NCBI RefSeq assembly: GCF_015840335.1
Contig: NZ_CP060395.1
Coordinates: forward strand, 1,773,277 to 1,837,276
Source: Synechococcus sp. CBW1108
GTDB taxonomy: Bacteria; Cyanobacteriota; Cyanobacteriia; PCC-6307; Cyanobiaceae
Direction of reading: 5' to 3'
Length of the DNA: 64,000 bases
Part shown: positions 23,399 through 62,399 of the stretch, piece by piece
How positions within the stretch are numbered: position 1 is the stretch's first letter
Layout: the number at the start of each line of letters is the position of its first letter
Notes under the pieces: generated by a model
Databases searched by the model: none
Seen by the model: only the letters and a program-made list of their open reading frames with translations
Told to the model about the DNA's origin: nothing
Made by a program: the position numbers and the translations under genes

Positions 23399-24631
23399 TC
23401 AGAGCACCCGCCACCACGGCACCGCCAGCACATCGGCCGTGAGCCATTCCACGCTCGTGCCGGTATGCAGCAGCAGGCCCGCCCGTGCCTTGCTGCCGTA
23501 TTCAGCGCGGAAGGTGCGCAGGTGGGCGCAGTCCGCCAGCCTTGGCGATGCCGTGGCCTTGACTTCGATCGGCAGCAGCCTGCCCCCCGCCTCGATCACC
23601 ACATCCACCTCCTCGCCGAGGGTTGTGCGCCAGTAGCCCAGTTCTGCTCGCTCGACGCGGGCGTCGCGCCACGCCAGCAGATCGTTCAGCACCAGATTTT
23701 CGAGATGGCAGCCCTGGGGTTCCGCTCCGGCCAGGTGCATGGCGATGGCGGTGTCGCCCCAGTAGAGCTTGGGGGACTTGATCAGTCGCTTGGTGCGGTT
23801 TACGGCATAGGCCGGCAGGCGCACGAGCTGGTAGGAGGTCTCCAGCAGATTGAGCCAGCGGCGCACCGTGGGTTGCGGCAGCGCCACGTCGCGCCCCAGT
23901 TCGGTCTGGTTGAGCAGCTGCCCCAGGCGCAGGCAGGCCGCCTGCATCAGTCGGCGGAAATCCGGCAGGGAGTTGATCGTCGCCAGGTCCTGCAGGTCGC
24001 GCTCGAGATAGGTGCGCACGTAGCCGTCGAACCAGATGGCGCGCTCGGCAGGGTTGCTCAGTTCGATCGCTGGCGTGGGGAAACCGCCCCGCTGCGCCAG
24101 CGCGCGCCAGTCTTCCCTATGACCGTCCCCGGTGGCGAGCAGGTCGCGCCAGCCTTGATCGGGCGTGTTGAGCAGCGCCTCCCAGCGACCGGCGCTGCCC
24201 AGTCCGCGTTGCTCACGGCGGGTGAGCGGCCAGAGGGTGAGATAACTCGCCCTGCCGGCGAGCGATTCACTCACCTGCCGCATCAGCAGCAGGTTTGCCG
24301 AACCGGTGAGCAGGAAGCGACCTGCTTTGCGGTCTCGATCGATGGCCCGCTTCACGGCGCTGAGCAGGGAGGGTTCCCTCTGCACCTCGTCGAGCGTGAT
24401 CGGCTCGTTGCCTCCCACCAGTGCCTCGGGATCGCGCCTGGCGGCAGCGAGCACGTCGAAGTCATCAAGGGTGCGGTAGCTCCTTTCGCCCGCAACCAGC
24501 TGCTCGGCCAGGGTGCTTTTTCCGGTCTGCCGCGCACCCGTCACCACCACTGCGGGCATCACCGCCAGCCGATCGGCGAGGGCGCCACTGACCAGCCGGG
24601 GCAGGGGATTCACCACGTGGATGATTTTCAT
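23399..24631 (-). CDS. ATP-binding protein, AAA_14 + DUF4143 type
   Basis: The product is 410 residues. Walker A is VVVTGARQTGKST near residues 28-40 and Walker B is ITLDEVQREPSLL near residue 78. The sensor region FLLTGSANLLLMRQVSESLAGR follows. The C-terminal DUF4143 part contains RTYLERDLQDL near residue 205 and GYWRTTLGEEVDVVIE with LLPIEVKAT, a PD-(D/E)xK-like nuclease signature (EVD...E.K). The biological role of this widespread, mobile family is not settled. An inverted repeat spans its start codon. A second member is at 39705-40880. Confidence 0.9.
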   Translation of the reverse strand: MKIIHVVNPLPRLVSGALADRLAVMPAVVVTGARQTGKSTLAEQLVAGERSYRTLDDFDVLAAARRDPEALVGGNEPITLDEVQREPSLLSAVKRAIDRDRKAGRFLLTGSANLLLMRQVSESLAGRASYLTLWPLTRREQRGLGSAGRWEALLNTPDQGWRDLLATGDGHREDWRALAQRGGFPTPAIELSNPAERAIWFDGYVRTYLERDLQDLATINSLPDFRRLMQAACLRLGQLLNQTELGRDVALPQPTVRRWLNLLETSYQLVRLPAYAVNRTKRLIKSPKLYWGDTAIAMHLAGAEPQGCHLENLVLNDLLAWRDARVERAELGYWRTTLGEEVDVVIEAGGRLLPIEVKATASPRLADCAHLRTFRAEYGSKARAGLLLHTGTSVEWLTADVLAVPWWRVL

Positions 24632-24645
24632 TCATCTGGTGAATC
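24607..24645. promoter_or_regulatory. Inverted repeat across the start codon of the DUF4143 ATPase gene
   Basis: The arms GATTCACCA (24607-24615) and TGGTGAATC (24637-24645) are perfect 9-bp complements. Inner bases can extend the pairing (GATGA with TCATC on the coding strand). The start codon at 24629-24631 lies between the arms, so one arm is in the coding region. An operator or an RNA hairpin covering the start codon would both fit. Confidence 0.6.
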
Positions 24646-38976: not shown

Positions 38977-39043
38977 GGTGCGCGGGGTGGGCCGCCGCCG
39001 GGCCCGGTGAGTGGTTGGGCGATTGTCCTACGCGGCGGATTTG

Positions 39044-39059
39044 GCTTACGCTGGTAAGC
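39044..39059. promoter_or_regulatory. Inverted repeat before the AbrB/PIN operon
   Basis: GCTTAC and GTAAGC are perfect 6-bp arms around GCTG. The repeat ends 6 bases before the GTG proposed as the antitoxin start. AbrB-type antitoxins bind such repeats to repress their own operon, so this is a possible operator. Confidence 0.5.
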
Positions 39060-39065
39060 AGGCCT

Positions 39066-39329
39066 GTGGTCGCTCTCGTGGATGCTCTTCTCACCCTCTC
39101 CTCCAAGGGCCAGCTGGTGATTCCAGCCCGGCTGCGCCAGCTGCTCGGGCTGCGCGCCGGCGATCGCCTGGCTCTGAGCCTGGAGTCCGATGGCCTGCAT
39201 CTGGTGCCCCAGGGGCCGGCTAAATCGTCGAGTGCCTATGCGGTGATTGGTGCGGCGCGCTATGGGGGTGAGCCTGTGCCGCTCGAGCGCATGGATCCGG
39301 CGCTCTATGCCGCCAAGGGATCGCGATGA
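39066..39329 (+). CDS. AbrB/MazE-type antitoxin
   Basis: The product is 87 residues from GTG 39066 (GTG 39078 is the alternative). The swapped-hairpin domain reads LLTLSSKGQLVIPARLRQLLGLRAGDRLAL. The C-terminal part is extended (GGEPVPLERMDPALYAAKG). It overlaps the downstream PIN gene by four bases (ATGA). Confidence 0.85.
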   Translation: MVALVDALLTLSSKGQLVIPARLRQLLGLRAGDRLALSLESDGLHLVPQGPAKSSSAYAVIGAARYGGEPVPLERMDPALYAAKGSR

Positions 39330-39730
39330 GCCTGCCGGTGGCCCTCGACACCAACCTGCTGGTGCGCCTGCTCACCAATGACGACCCTGAGCAGGCCCGT
39401 CGCGTGGCCGATCTGATCGATGACAGCTCAGCCTGTTTCGTGCCGATCACCGTGGTGTTGGAGCTGGAATGGGTGCTGCGCGGCGCCTACCAACTGCCCC
39501 GGGAGGCGATCATCGGTGCATTCCGCGGCTTGATCGCGATCCGCCATCTGCATCTGGAGCAGGAGGAGCAGGTGTTGCAGGCCCTTGAGGCCTATGGCCA
39601 GGGCCTGGATTTCGCCGATGCCCTGCATCTGCTGCGCAGTGAGGGCTGCGCGGCCCTGGTCAGCTTCGATCGCGCCTTCGCGGCCAAGGCCGGTGAGCTG
39701 GCGCTTACCCCCGCGGTGCAGCAGCTCTGA
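39326..39730 (+). CDS. PIN-domain ribonuclease toxin (VapC)
   Basis: The product is 134 residues with PIN acids: Asp in ALDTNLLVRLLTND, Glu in VLELEWVLRGAY, and Asp in LDFADALHLL and SFDRAFA. The pairing with an AbrB-type antitoxin and the four-base overlap define a VapBC-type operon. Its end overlaps the convergent DUF4143 ATPase gene by 26 bases. Confidence 0.9.
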   Translation: MSLPVALDTNLLVRLLTNDDPEQARRVADLIDDSSACFVPITVVLELEWVLRGAYQLPREAIIGAFRGLIAIRHLHLEQEEQVLQALEAYGQGLDFADALHLLRSEGCAALVSFDRAFAAKAGELALTPAVQQL

Positions 39731-40880
39731 GCTCGCTGCCGCCAGCCTCCAGGGGCGGTTGCACCCAGATGCCCGGGCGAATCTCGAAGCTCGTTTCCAC
39801 CGGGGCGATCAGTGAGGCCTGCTCCGGTTGAAGCTGCTCCACCAGCTCATGGAAGCCCCGGGAGAGCTTCGGTGCCTTGGAGAGCTTGATTTCATAGACC
39901 CGCCGGCGCTGGCCCCGCTCCAGCACCAGGTCGAGTTCGGCGCCGTGGCCGGTGCGCAGGAAATGGGGACGCCAGCGCGGATGGGCGGCGATCAGCTGCT
40001 CGATCACGAAACCCTCCCAGCTCTCACCGGCCTGCGGGTGGGCCAGCAGATCGTCGTAGCTCTCGATGCCGAGCAGGTTGTGCAGCAGGCCGCTGTCGCG
40101 CAGGTAGAGCTTGGGCGAGCGCACCAGCCTCTTGCTCAGGTTGGCCTCCAGCGGCGGTAGCCGCCGCAGCATGAAGGTGTGCTCCAGCGCCGCCAGCAGC
40201 TTCTGCAACCGGGCGCTGCTGAGATCCAGCAGGCCCGCTAGCCGGCTGGCATTGAGGGTTTGCCCCTGCAGGTGGGCCAGCAACCGCCACAGCCGCTCCA
40301 TTAACGGCAGCGGCAGCCCGAGCTCCAGGGCGGCGATGTCGCGGCCCAGGAAGGTGCGGATGAAATCCTCGCGCCAGTCGATGCTGTCGTCGTCTGCGCT
40401 AGCCAGCAGGCTCTCGGGGAAGCCGCCGCGCAGCCACAGCTGCTGCCAGCGAATGGCGGGGGCCACTTCGCTCAGCAGAAACGGGGTGAGCTCCACCTGG
40501 GCGATGCGGCCGGCCAGGCTTTCCTGGCTCTGGCGCAGCAGCGGGCCGGAGGCCGAGCCCAGCAGCAGGAATCGCCCGGGCCGGCGATCCCGGTCGATCT
40601 CGGCGCGCAGCAGACTGAAAAAGTCTGGCAGTAGCTGGATTTCGTCGAGGCACACCAGCTCATGCCGGTGGGCCTCGAAGAACAGCTCCGGCTCCTGCAG
40701 GCGGGCTCGATCGCTCCGGTCCTGCAAGTCGAGCAATACGGCATCGCCGCGCTCGGCCAGTAGTTGGCGCGCCAGCGTTGATTTGCCGCACTGCCGGGGT
40801 CCCAGCAGCAGTGCTGCCGGCGCCCGGTTCAGGGCCTTGCTGAGCACCAGCTGGGCTTGCCTGGGCAAATAACCGTGCAT
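39705..40880 (-). CDS. ATP-binding protein, AAA_14 + DUF4143 type
   Basis: The product is 391 residues starting MHGYLPRQAQLVL. Walker A is LLGPRQCGKST near residues 24-34, Walker B LVCLDEIQLLPDFF near 74, and the sensor LLGSASGPLLRQSQESLAGR follows. DUF4143 with RTFLGRDIAALE and the nuclease-like GAELDLVLE and YEIKLSK is C-terminal. It is a distant relative of the gene at 23399. The start codon sits at the inner edge of a 12-bp inverted repeat. Confidence 0.9.
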   Translation of the reverse strand: MHGYLPRQAQLVLSKALNRAPAALLLGPRQCGKSTLARQLLAERGDAVLLDLQDRSDRARLQEPELFFEAHRHELVCLDEIQLLPDFFSLLRAEIDRDRRPGRFLLLGSASGPLLRQSQESLAGRIAQVELTPFLLSEVAPAIRWQQLWLRGGFPESLLASADDDSIDWREDFIRTFLGRDIAALELGLPLPLMERLWRLLAHLQGQTLNASRLAGLLDLSSARLQKLLAALEHTFMLRRLPPLEANLSKRLVRSPKLYLRDSGLLHNLLGIESYDDLLAHPQAGESWEGFVIEQLIAAHPRWRPHFLRTGHGAELDLVLERGQRRRVYEIKLSKAPKLSRGFHELVEQLQPEQASLIAPVETSFEIRPGIWVQPPLEAGGSELRAAAPRG

Positions 40881-40914
40881 TTCTGCAGCATAGATGCCAA
40901 ATTGCACGGTTATT
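40868..40914. promoter_or_regulatory. Inverted repeat across the start codon of the second DUF4143 ATPase gene
   Basis: AATAACCGTGCA (40868-40879) and TGCACGGTTATT (40903-40914) are perfect 12-bp arms with a 23-bp spacer. On the coding strand one arm is upstream and the other starts within the ATG and covers codons 1-5. With one gap the pairing extends to about 17 bases. The repeat also lies about 54 bases ahead of the divergent radical SAM gene. Confidence 0.7.
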
Positions 40915-40967
40915 GCCGCTGTTGCGGGCGCTGCATACGATTGAGCTCTTGCCTGCCGTCGGCACCT

Positions 40968-43631
40968 GTGACCGTTGCCACCTCGGCTGATGCGCCGGTC
41001 GACTTCGACGCCCTGGTGGATCTGGGCATCAGCAAGCCCGCCCGCTACCTGGGCAATGAGCTGGGGGTGCAGCCGCGCGACTGGGAGGCCGATTGGAAGC
41101 AAGTAGGGGTGCGCTGGGCGCTCACCTACCCCGAGGTCTACGAGGTGGGGGCAAGCAACAGCGGCCACATCATTCTCTATTCAATTCTCAACGCCGTTCC
41201 CGGCCAGCTCTGCGACCGCAGCTACCTGCCGGCGCCGGATCTGGCCGCCCGCCTGCGCGAGCGAGGCGCGCCCCTGTTTGCGGTTGAGAGCCGGCGGCCC
41301 TTAGCCGCCTTCGACATCCTGGGCTTCTCGCTCAGCTACGAACTGGGCGGCACCAACATCCTCGAGATGCTGGAGCTGGCCGGCATCCCGATCCGGGCGG
41401 CCGATCGCGGCGACCTGCCCCTGGCTCACCCGGATTCGCCACCGCTGATCTTTGCCGGCGGCCCCACAGCCACCAGCAACCCGGAGCCCTTCGCCGCCTT
41501 CTTTGACTTCGTGGCCCTCGGCGATGGCGAGGAGCTGCTGCCCGAGATCGGCCTGGTGGTGGCCGAGGGCCGTGCCGCCGGCCTCAGCCGCCGGGCGCTG
41601 CTGAAGGATCTGGCCCAGGTGCCAGGGGTATACGTGCCTAGCCTCTATGGACCCGGCGCCGATGGGGTGAGCATCGAGCCGCTCGAACCAGGCGTCCCGG
41701 CCCGGATTCAGCGGCGCACCGCCACGCCTATGCCCCACTACGCCATGGGCCTGGTGCCCCACATCGAAACGGTTCACGACCGGCTCACGGTGGAGATTCG
41801 CCGCGGCTGCACCCGCGGCTGCCGCTTCTGCCAGCCCGGCATGCTCACCCGACCCGCCCGCGACGTGGAGCCCGAAGCCGTCATCGAAGCGGTGGAAGAG
41901 GGTATGGGCCGCACCGGTTACGCCGATTTTTCGCTGCTGTCCCTGAGCTGCTCCGACTACCTGGCCCTGCCCGCCGTCGGCGTCGAACTGCGCAACCGTC
42001 TTGCTGACAAAAATGTTTCCCTCACCCTGCCCAGCCAGCGGGTGGATCGCTTCGATGAGAACATCGCCCACATCCTGGGCGGCACCCGCAAGGCGGGCCT
42101 CACCTTTGCGCCGGAGGCTGGCAGCCAGCGTCTGCGCGACATCGTCAACAAGGGGCTCACTGACGCCGAGCTGCTGGCCGGCGTGCGTACGGCGATGGAG
42201 AACGGCTATCGCAAATTGAAGCTCTATTTCATGATCGGCCTGCCGGGGGAAACCGATGCCGACGTGCTCGGCATCGCCGATACATGCCAGGCCCTGCAAC
42301 GGCAGTGCGGCGATCTGGGCCGGCTGGAGCTGAACCTCACGATCAGCAACTTCACGCCCAAGCCCCACACGCCCTTCCAGTGGCACAGCGTCAGCACCGG
42401 CGAATTCCGGCGGCGCCAGGAATTGCTCAGAGGCGCCCTGCGCCAGTTGCGCGGCCTTAAGACCAACTTCACCGACGTGCGGCTTTCGGCAATCGAAGAC
42501 TTCATCGGCCGCGGCGACCGGCAGCTGGCCCCGGTGATCGAGGCCGCCTGGCGCGCCGGCGCCGGCCTGGATGCCTGGTTTGAATCGGCCGAGCGCAGCT
42601 ATGCCGCCTGGACCGGGGCGATCGAGGCGGCCGGCCTTGGCGGCCGCTACCGCCAGCTGGAGCTGGGCGCCTGGAGCGCCACTGAAGCCATGGCGGCGGC
42701 GGCTCTGGAGGCCTTCTGCCGCCAGAGCCTGCCCTGGGACCACATCGATTCGGGGCTCGAGAAACGCTGGCTAGCGGAAGATCTGCAACGGGCCCTGGCG
42801 GCGGCGGTGGTGCCCGATTGCTCCTTCGCCGGCTGCAGCAGTTGCGGCGTATGCGGGCCCGAGCTGGGCCACAACGTGGTGATCCCGCCGCTGCCCATCC
42901 CACCGGCCAAGCCCCAGCGGGCCCCCGCCAGTGAGCGGGTGGACCGGCTGCGGATTGGCTTTGCCAAAACCGGCTCCCTGGCGCTGATCAGCCATCTAGA
43001 CACCCTGCGGATGCTGGAGCGGGCCCTGCGCCGTTCCGGCCTGCCGGTGAGTTTCAGCGGCGGCTTCCACCCCTTGCCGCGGTTGCAGCTCGCCCTGCCC
43101 TTGCCCTTGGGGGTGGAGGGTCTCGGCGAGTGGCTTGACCTGGAGTTCACCGAGCAGGTAGATCCGGCGCTGGTGCGGGCCCGGCTGCAGCCCCAGTTGC
43201 CAGCAGAATTCCAGTTGCTGTCTGCCTTGCAGGTGCCGGTGTTTGGAGTGAGCCTCTCCCAGGAGCTGGAGGCGGCGCATTGGGACTTCGTGCTGCAGCC
43301 CCAGGCCGGGGCACCTTTGACGCCCCAGCAGTGGCAGCAGGCCCGTAGCGCCCTGCTGGCTGCCCAGACCCTGGCCTGGCAGGACACCGATAAGAAAGGG
43401 CGACCCCGCAGCCGCGATTGCCGGCCTTTTCTGCTGGATTTGGTGATCTCAGAGTTGTTCCCCGATGGCCCGGCGGCTTTCGATCTGCGGGCGGCAGTTG
43501 ATAGCTCTGGCCGGAGCCTGAGGCCTGAGCAGCTGCAGCATTGGCTTGGTGAGCTGCTCGGCCAGCCGTTGACCGTCACCACCCTGCGTCGCAGGGCCCT
43601 GCTGCTCAAGCCCGTGCTAACCTTTAATTAA
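40968..43631 (+). CDS. TIGR03960-family radical SAM protein fused to a DUF2344 domain
   Basis: The product is 887 residues from a GTG start. A B12-binding-like N-terminal region (ALTYPEVYEVGASNSGHIIL) precedes the radical SAM core with RRGCTRGCRFCQPGMLTRP near residues 277-295. CSDYLALPAV, LTFAPEAGSQRLRDIVNKGL and GLPGETDADV follow. Two Cys clusters lie in CSFAGCSSCGVCG near residue 628. From about residue 660 the DUF2344 domain (RIGFAKTGSLALISHLDTLRMLERALRRS) begins. This fusion often precedes rne, as here. The reaction is unknown. Confidence 0.85.
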   Translation: MTVATSADAPVDFDALVDLGISKPARYLGNELGVQPRDWEADWKQVGVRWALTYPEVYEVGASNSGHIILYSILNAVPGQLCDRSYLPAPDLAARLRERGAPLFAVESRRPLAAFDILGFSLSYELGGTNILEMLELAGIPIRAADRGDLPLAHPDSPPLIFAGGPTATSNPEPFAAFFDFVALGDGEELLPEIGLVVAEGRAAGLSRRALLKDLAQVPGVYVPSLYGPGADGVSIEPLEPGVPARIQRRTATPMPHYAMGLVPHIETVHDRLTVEIRRGCTRGCRFCQPGMLTRPARDVEPEAVIEAVEEGMGRTGYADFSLLSLSCSDYLALPAVGVELRNRLADKNVSLTLPSQRVDRFDENIAHILGGTRKAGLTFAPEAGSQRLRDIVNKGLTDAELLAGVRTAMENGYRKLKLYFMIGLPGETDADVLGIADTCQALQRQCGDLGRLELNLTISNFTPKPHTPFQWHSVSTGEFRRRQELLRGALRQLRGLKTNFTDVRLSAIEDFIGRGDRQLAPVIEAAWRAGAGLDAWFESAERSYAAWTGAIEAAGLGGRYRQLELGAWSATEAMAAAALEAFCRQSLPWDHIDSGLEKRWLAEDLQRALAAAVVPDCSFAGCSSCGVCGPELGHNVVIPPLPIPPAKPQRAPASERVDRLRIGFAKTGSLALISHLDTLRMLERALRRSGLPVSFSGGFHPLPRLQLALPLPLGVEGLGEWLDLEFTEQVDPALVRARLQPQLPAEFQLLSALQVPVFGVSLSQELEAAHWDFVLQPQAGAPLTPQQWQQARSALLAAQTLAWQDTDKKGRPRSRDCRPFLLDLVISELFPDGPAAFDLRAAVDSSGRSLRPEQLQHWLGELLGQPLTVTTLRRRALLLKPVLTFN

Positions 43632-61529: not shown

Positions 61530-62399
61530 CTAGCGCGGGTACTCCCGCATCAGACGCTGCACCTCGCTGGCGTGGTAACTGCTACGGGTGAGCGGGCTGC
61601 TTATCACTTGCAGGAAGCCCAAGGCCTCCTCGCCGTGCTGGCGGAAGGCCGCGAACTGCTCGGGGGTCACGAAGCGATCCACGGGCAGGTGTTTGGGCCC
61701 CGGCGAGAGGTACTGGCCGATCGTCACGATGTCCACGGCGTGGCGGCGTAGATCGGCCAGTACCTCGAGCACCTCGGCGTCGCTTTCGCCCAGGCCCACC
61801 ATCAACCCCGACTTGCTGTAGGTGCGCGGCCAACCCGTCCGGACCCGCTGCAGCAGCTCCAGCGAGCGCCCGTAGAGGCCTTGGGGGCGGGCCTTTTTAT
61901 AGAGCCTCGGCACGGTTTCAATGTTGTGGTTCAGCACCTGGGGCGCGGCTGCCATCACGGTTGCCAGGGCATCCCAGTTGCCGCAGAAATCGGGAATCAG
62001 CAGTTCGATCGTGGTGAGCGGCGAGCGCTGGCGTACCTGCTGAATGCAGGCCACAAACTGGCTGGCGCCGCCATCGGCCAGGTCGTCGCGGTTGACCGAG
62101 GTGATCACCACGTGGCTGAGGCCCAGGCGCGCCACCGCTTCCCCCAGCCGCTCGGGCTCGCTGGGGTCGAGCTCCCGCACGCTCCTGTCGAAGTCGATGT
62201 CGCAGTAGGGGCAGGCGCGGGTGCAGCCCGGCCCCATGATCAAAAAGGTGGCCGTGCCGCCGGCGAAGCACTCGCCGATGTTGGGGCAGCTGGCCTCCTG
62301 GCAGACCGTATTTAGCCTGAGATCCTCAAGTAGGTCGGCCACCTCGCCGATCCTTTGCCACTGGGGGGCCTTGACGCGCAGCCAGTCGGGTTTGAGCAA
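61530..62399 (-). CDS. lipA: Lipoyl synthase
   Basis: The product is about 289 residues; it inserts sulfur into octanoyl groups. The two clusters are bound by [12 protein letters not shown] and [11 protein letters not shown]; later motifs are [11 protein letters not shown] and RSSYHASEV. The frame has no ATG except far upstream, where tRNA-Pro lies. TTG at 62399 ([12 protein letters not shown]) is the likely start; TTG 62408 is an alternative. It converges on glutamate synthase. Confidence 0.93.

Follow-up and report, generated by a model that had tools for sequence, protein, structure and literature searches.

The ATPase gene and its start region

The window, which here means the whole 64-kb stretch of DNA analysed, carries on its minus strand an ATPase gene that, judged by sequence, is a member of PDC-S01 (AAA_14-DUF4143, COG1373), a phage-defence candidate with a putative anti-phage role. 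The portion of PMC12988326 drawn on here ranks PDC-S01 as the fourth most common defence across prokaryotes (29,494 instances in Bacteria and 9,986 in Archaea), and describes validation as pending for most PDCs of the core set. The features of the locus are as follows.

39705-40880, minus strand: AAA_14-DUF4143 ATPase gene, 391 amino acids plus stop, PADLOC PDC-S01; protein model pLDDT 93.5
39879-40343, minus strand: DUF4143 domain, residues 180-334 (Pfam)
39885-39932, minus strand: D317...E330-x-K332 of the PD-(D/E)XK fold, invariant in 81 sequences
39939-39950, minus strand: residues 311-314 (G-H-G-A), a beta-hairpin turn; His312 tracks base 5 of the half-site
40464-40820, minus strand: AAA_14 ATPase domain, residues 21-139 (Pfam)
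40868-40914, no strand: inverted repeat, two perfect 12-bp arms and a 23-bp spacer (sequence check)
40871-40911, minus strand: 41-bp operator-like core, AACCGTGCAATT-N17-AAATGCACGGTT, half-site CCGTGCA, CC-to-GG span 37 bp; geometry common to relatives
40878-40880, minus strand: ATPase start codon ATG, which the 3' arm overlaps at its inner end, MHGY class

The encoded protein exceeds the Pfam cut-offs for both domains (AAA_14, 90.7 bits against 27; DUF4143, 130.2 against 28.1) and matches the PADLOC PDC-S01 profile PDLC04790 (E 2e-86). The whole-protein model has a mean pLDDT of 93.5, and in it residues 311-314 form the predicted turn linking strands 304-310 and 315-322. Residues 1-271 resemble two archaeal ATPases: PAB2304 (2qen; Z 17.8, 247 residues, 2.8 A) and SSO1545 (2fna; Z 16.7, 251 residues, 3.2 A). 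Both alignments stop, however, before the C-terminal nuclease-fold domain that contains residue 312. Whole-model structural alignments were filled by ATPases; the C-terminal domain was therefore modelled (pLDDT 93.3) and searched alone. It aligned with McrC (6hz4_M; Z 9.1, 106 residues, 3.0 A), a modest match with a Foldseek E of 2.8e-3, and Can2, Hjc, and FokI ranked below McrC among the fold matches. The residues of the D...(D/E)-x-K motif are conserved, with E315, D317, E330, and K332 invariant across 81 sequences. By this modest match of a model, the C-terminal domain is of the PD-(D/E)XK fold and a predicted nuclease.

The preliminary description had noted two perfect 12-bp arms around a 23-bp spacer at the gene start, and the window indeed holds AATAACCGTGCA at 40868-40879 and TGCACGGTTATT at 40903-40914. 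The start codon lies at 40880-40878 of the minus strand, and the arm opens at its second base. An arm running from the ATG to Tyr4, as first described, is thus partly right: codons 2-4 are covered, but only the TG of the ATG, together with one base of codon 5. The preliminary description judged a perfect 12-bp match at this place improbable by chance. The window contains four perfect inverted repeats with arms of at least 12 bp and a span of at most 61 bp, compared with 0, 0, 1, 0, and 1 in five dinucleotide shuffles; none of the other three is as AT-rich as the start-region repeat. The longest repeat within that span has perfect 16-bp arms and a 28-bp spacer, at 61707-61766.

An Rfam search over 40700-41100 gave two matches, both outside the repeat, with E >0.6 and far below the gathering scores; a scan of 40780-41080 for sigma-70 promoters and terminators found none. 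An arrangement suggested by the sequence logo, with the 5' arm as a -35 element and the end of the spacer as a -10 element, fits one start-codon class and not the other, and is not claimed. At 39015-39730 on the plus strand, a gene pair encoding a MazE-like antitoxin and a PIN-domain protein converges with the ATPase gene and overlaps its 3' end by 26 bp.

Conservation and geometry of the site

The proposed comparative check asked whether orthologues keep the repeat. A scan of genome contigs with eight sequences returned at least 580 stretches with at least 561 relatives, and the best 80 of these were used. Relatives do carry the site, so the repeat is a real and conserved feature of the start region. 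Three of four congeners whose proteins are 96-99% identical (L009, L010, and L011) have perfect arms of 11-12 bp; the fourth, L012, has a mismatch at base 9 in one half-site. Two relatives with 49% identity, L013 and L015, have ATCCTTGCA-N23-TGCAAGGAT.

A test that used no motif letters examined the 210 nt leading up to the P-loop codon. Arms of at least 8 bp occurred there in 48 of 80 loci, versus 10 of 80 controls taken within genes and 8 of 73 taken far upstream. Arms of at least 12 bp were found in 22 of the 80 best relatives; the control maxima were 9 bp in 80 in-gene segments, 11 bp in 73 far-upstream segments, and 11 bp in 1600 shuffles. Under scoring that allowed any span from 29 to 47, 64 of the 80 best relatives exceeded the highest of 80 in-gene controls and 16 did not. 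The CC-to-GG span was 37 bp in 55 of these 64 strong sites and 38 bp in seven, so that 62 of 64 share one geometry, with the consensus half-site CC[T/A]TGCA. The scoring consensus was drawn from these same 80 loci after they had been viewed, and the letters it rewards are therefore partly fixed by choice. Among them are T6, G7, and A9, which are almost fixed across 63 sites. The span stays fixed while arm length varies up to 24 bp. The repeat first described as a plain pair of arms is real, but what is conserved is a 41-bp site whose half-sites keep a fixed distance.

The two arms also change together: base 5 is identical in both arms at 57 of 63 sites (TT 35, AA 21, GG 1), and base 8 at 50 of 63. 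Across 440 kb of locus sequence, a score of at least 18.5 was reached by 54 sites at the genes and by three elsewhere, the latter being second copies 76 bp off in Algoriphagus loci. (These loci, L089, L092, and L100, have tandem sites 76 bp apart before the same gene.) The common geometry spans hosts from many phyla, as named in their sequence records.

Sites are placed precisely with respect to translation. Relative to the P-loop codon, 22 of the 56 span-37 sites begin at position -108 and another 14 at -109, making 36 that lie over the start codon. In the -108 class, the outer end of the 3' arm supplies the ATG (GGATG); in the -109 class the inner end does so (aTGCA), and there the DNA site dictates the first residues of the protein, for example MHGY or MQGM. 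Overlap with the start codon holds in two classes but not in L013, L015, or a broken paralogue of the window gene, where the whole site precedes the start as read. Only three of the 36 sites have a Shine-Dalgarno core at 4-16 nt ahead of the start, which suggests that the start may lie near the mRNA 5' end.

The host's own 3.2-Mb genome contains the pattern TWAACCKTGCA-N23-TGCAMGGTTWA, with at most three mismatches, at two places: the window gene and the broken paralogue. A reversed control pattern gave zero matches in the same genome. The paralogue, interrupted by an in-frame TAA, has ATTAACCTTGCA-N23-TGCAAGGTTAAT, the same architecture, upstream of its ATG. A PF13635 search of this genome returned seven matches. 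A shorter pattern had four matches in 386 genomes from the same phylum, three of them at DUF4143 genes; the fourth has arms unpaired at the free position and no recognisable DUF4143 gene within its 3-kb surroundings.

A divergent radical SAM gene had been suggested as another target of the repeat. Such a gene is nearby in only 6 of 92 loci; the site goes with the ATPase, and regulation of the radical SAM gene was rejected as the reason for its conservation. A local effect on this neighbour is possible.

Co-variation of residue 312 and base 5

The varying base of the half-site follows a single residue of the encoded protein. Residue 312 is Ala or Val where base 5 is T, Asn or Gln where it is A, His or Lys where it is G, and Asp where it is C. 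By mutual information over 63 loci, residue 312 ranks first among protein columns for base 5. The association has U = 0.89, computed over the 65 of 81 sequences with a site found and both arms equal; the next-best column reaches 0.53.

Shared ancestry was modelled by evolving labels on a protein tree built without the loop columns, at a fitted, a slower, and a faster rate, and keeping only runs with label entropy 0.6-1.5 times that observed. The best of 379 columns reached at least 0.89 in 0, 1, and 0 of 600 runs, respectively. When the z-score replaced U, the base-5 association was matched in 2, 31, and 0 of the 600 runs, and wing residue 253 ranked first at the slower rate and second at the fitted and faster rates. 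The treekit independent-pairs test gave only three supported pairs. Bases 8, 4, and 2 fail the family-wise tree test: their associations were equalled in strength in 133, 319, and 207 of the 600 null runs. By shuffling, strong links had appeared between base 8 and residue 311 and between bases 3-4 and residue 314; on the tree, bases 8 and 4 failed, and these pairs were set aside.

How often individual loci obey the rule was tallied with bases 5 and 8 excluded from site scoring. The 80 loci comprise 58 that are callable, 17 with a residue outside the rule, and five without a site. Both arms fit in 52 of the 58, one arm in five, and neither in one, in the same 80 loci from which the rule was derived; all 20 callable loci without Ala or Val at residue 312 fit. 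Among the 80, Lys (L053, with G) and Asp (L093, with C) are represented by one locus each, as is His once the window gene's own species group is set aside, and Gly, Ser, and Thr at this position show no clear base-5 rule in this set.

Beyond the alignment are 29 loci from plasmids, viral contigs, congeners, and other cyanobacterial relatives, which were inspected before the tally. Both arms fit in 19 of the 22 callable loci, four of the 19 being near-identical congeners of the window gene; one arm fits in three, and neither in none. The remainder are six with a residue outside the rule and one without a site: L202, which has Asp312 and C at base 5 in a site below threshold. Three further loci dropped out because they gave no P-loop or loop match (L172, the loop; L201; L203). 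From 20 viral loci, L172, L173, L174, L175, and L178 were put forward for the outside tally, L172 then dropping out as stated, and L179-L191 were left out; the site of L175 recurs in L176 and L177.

Individual comparisons illustrate the rule. The window gene has His312 and CCGTGCA. L033 and L034, 85-87% identical to it and sharing its neighbour gene, carry Asn312 together with CCATGCA; the distant L075, at 50%, has His312 and CCGTGCA, as does the window gene. In the host's own genome, the pair is His312 with G for the window gene and Ala312 with T for the broken paralogue.

Dyads at other DUF4143 genes

Among 58 PF13635 loci, which include members of the window gene's subfamily (eight of 66 having been dropped for want of a P-loop match), arms of at least 9 bp precede 15, versus 5 of 58 in-gene. 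Inside the subfamily, strong dyads (at least 80% paired) occur upstream in 32 of 80 loci, versus 0 of 80 in-gene. Outside it they occur in 13 of 63, versus 2 of 63 in-gene, and with other half-sites; this set excluded five subfamily members, five duplicates, L138, L152, and eight loci without a P-loop match. No common dyad position was found outside the subfamily (the best centre, -77, has z 3.5; -89 has z 2.0), and fixed geometry is therefore claimed only for the window gene's subfamily.

The window contains another DUF4143 ATPase gene, at 23402-24631 on the minus strand, with GATTCACCA-N21-TGGTGAATC at 24607-24645. Its dyad is centred at -88 from the P-loop codon; the site under study is centred at -89. 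L208, 90% identical to this second ATPase, does not keep the perfect arms, and a search of viral contigs found no relatives of it. Three genes of Azotobacter and Pseudomonas plasmids (L222, L223, and L224), about 40% identical to the second ATPase, have the half-site TGGTGTAAT in arms of 14, 17, and 8 bp, respectively. Their palindromes are centred at -88, with the ATG in the outer part of the 3' arm: a different half-site in the same geometry.

A further subfamily, that of L212-L215, carries palindromes with the half-site TTT[A/C]GTTTA or TCGTTTA near the start; between L212 and L214 the varying base differs in both arms, and L214 is the same place as L115. The DUF4143 genes L123, L146, L164, and L114 have long start-region repeats of other sequence, that of L146 being CATACTGCAAGA-N11-TCTTGCAGTATG.

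A model for the start-region site

The conserved site, its fixed geometry, its placement, the co-variation of both arms, and the pairing of residue 312 with base 5 are the observations to be explained. The explanation we favour, and consider probable on sequence evidence, is that the repeat forms the core of a palindromic 41-bp operator, which the ATPase encoded by the gene itself reads in negative autoregulation. Recognition by this product is suggested because residue 312 co-varies with base 5, and self-repression at the operator is its probable consequence. Two subunits, presumably as a dimer, would each bind one half-site, CC-N-TG-C-A, the half-sites lying about 30 bp or about three helical turns apart. 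The hairpin turn of the PD-(D/E)XK-fold domain would touch base 5 through residue 312. The matches of Ala and Val with T, Asn and Gln with A, His and Lys with G, and Asp with C are those of usual protein-DNA contact chemistry. Bound at a site that covers the start codon, the protein should prevent either transcription or initiation at that codon, and so repress. Levels of the ATPase-nuclease might thereby stay low until the protein is released by some signal, possibly foreign DNA or ATP turnover.

The main rival retains the protein as reader and changes the purpose: the site would be a nuclease target or loading point, serving self-cutting, copy control, or marking of a replicon. The tracking residue does sit in a PD-(D/E)XK-fold domain with the four invariant residues named above, McrC, Can2, Hjc, and FokI are among the fold matches, and some relatives are on plasmids, with rep or par genes adjoining in 6 of 15 regions. 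Yet a protein that actively cut this site would cleave the gene that encodes it, and a clear site is present in 64 of 80 relatives as well as in the broken paralogue; placement over the start codon, moreover, is what a repressor needs. We regard this rival as unlikely.

Weaker still, and disfavoured, is translational control by an mRNA hairpin that hides the start codon. As RNA, a 66-nt segment carrying the window gene's site has a folding energy of -27.5 kcal/mol (z -3.3), but the opposite strand folds about equally (z -3.1). Arm pairs other than Watson-Crick lean slightly toward RNA (G-T 23 versus A-C 11, p = 0.058). Against a hairpin stand the near-fixed T6, G7, and A9 of the 63 sites (letters rewarded in scoring), a span that holds while the arms vary, a base 5 that tracks a protein residue, and the scarcity of Shine-Dalgarno cores before the start.

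A palindrome by itself does not name its reader, which might be an unrelated host regulator controlling these genes; with one geometry across hosts of many phyla, and base 5 tracked by a residue of the encoded protein, this is very improbable. A chance repeat lacking function, of which a shuffled window yields at most one of comparable length, is scarcely credible given the conservation, geometry, and co-variation of the site.

Relation to known systems

Like PDC-S01 as treated in the consulted portion of PMC12988326, the window protein is an ATPase fused to a PD-(D/E)XK member; unlike the description given there, a cis site and a specificity residue are proposed here. The open literature, surveyed mostly at the level of titles, yielded no description of a gene-start site for AAA_14-DUF4143, COG1373, or PDC-S01 genes. 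In its isolated C-terminal fold the protein resembles McrC and other PD-(D/E)XK nucleases, but differs from them in the proposed reading of its own gene start.

Relatives of varying closeness are encoded on 233 of 72,556 plasmid records (E 1e-30). Within 15 relatives' regions, rep or par genes occur in six and a recombinase or integrase in five; two relatives adjoin repC/repB or repC. As in the autorepressed repABC plasmid operons, in the part of PMC4492784 that treats them, a plasmid-encoded protein would act on its own operon; the ATPase, however, belongs to another protein family, and its autorepression is putative.

Inducibility has an indirect parallel. In Thermus thermophilus HB27, the DUF4143 gene TT_P0211 is up 6.6-fold only when Argonaute and plasmid are both present, according to the section of PMC4406477 that reports it. 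This gene, by position probably TT_RS11170, a relative of the other window ATPase, speaks only indirectly for inducibility of the gene under study.

A broader and more tentative proposal, which we put forward as a possibility rather than an expectation, is that PDC-S01 is a self-addressed ATPase-nuclease. At rest it would occupy a 41-bp site at the start codon of its gene, with the nuclease-fold domain serving as a reader of nearly one residue to one base (312 to base 5), and would be released by invading DNA; joint change of the residue and both arms, of the kind seen between the window gene and its broken paralogue, would keep paralogues apart. The new element is a PD-(D/E)XK-type domain as the candidate reader of its own gene's start. 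Together, a cognate site and a named candidate specificity residue make the function of PDC-S01 open to binding, reporter, and swap tests.
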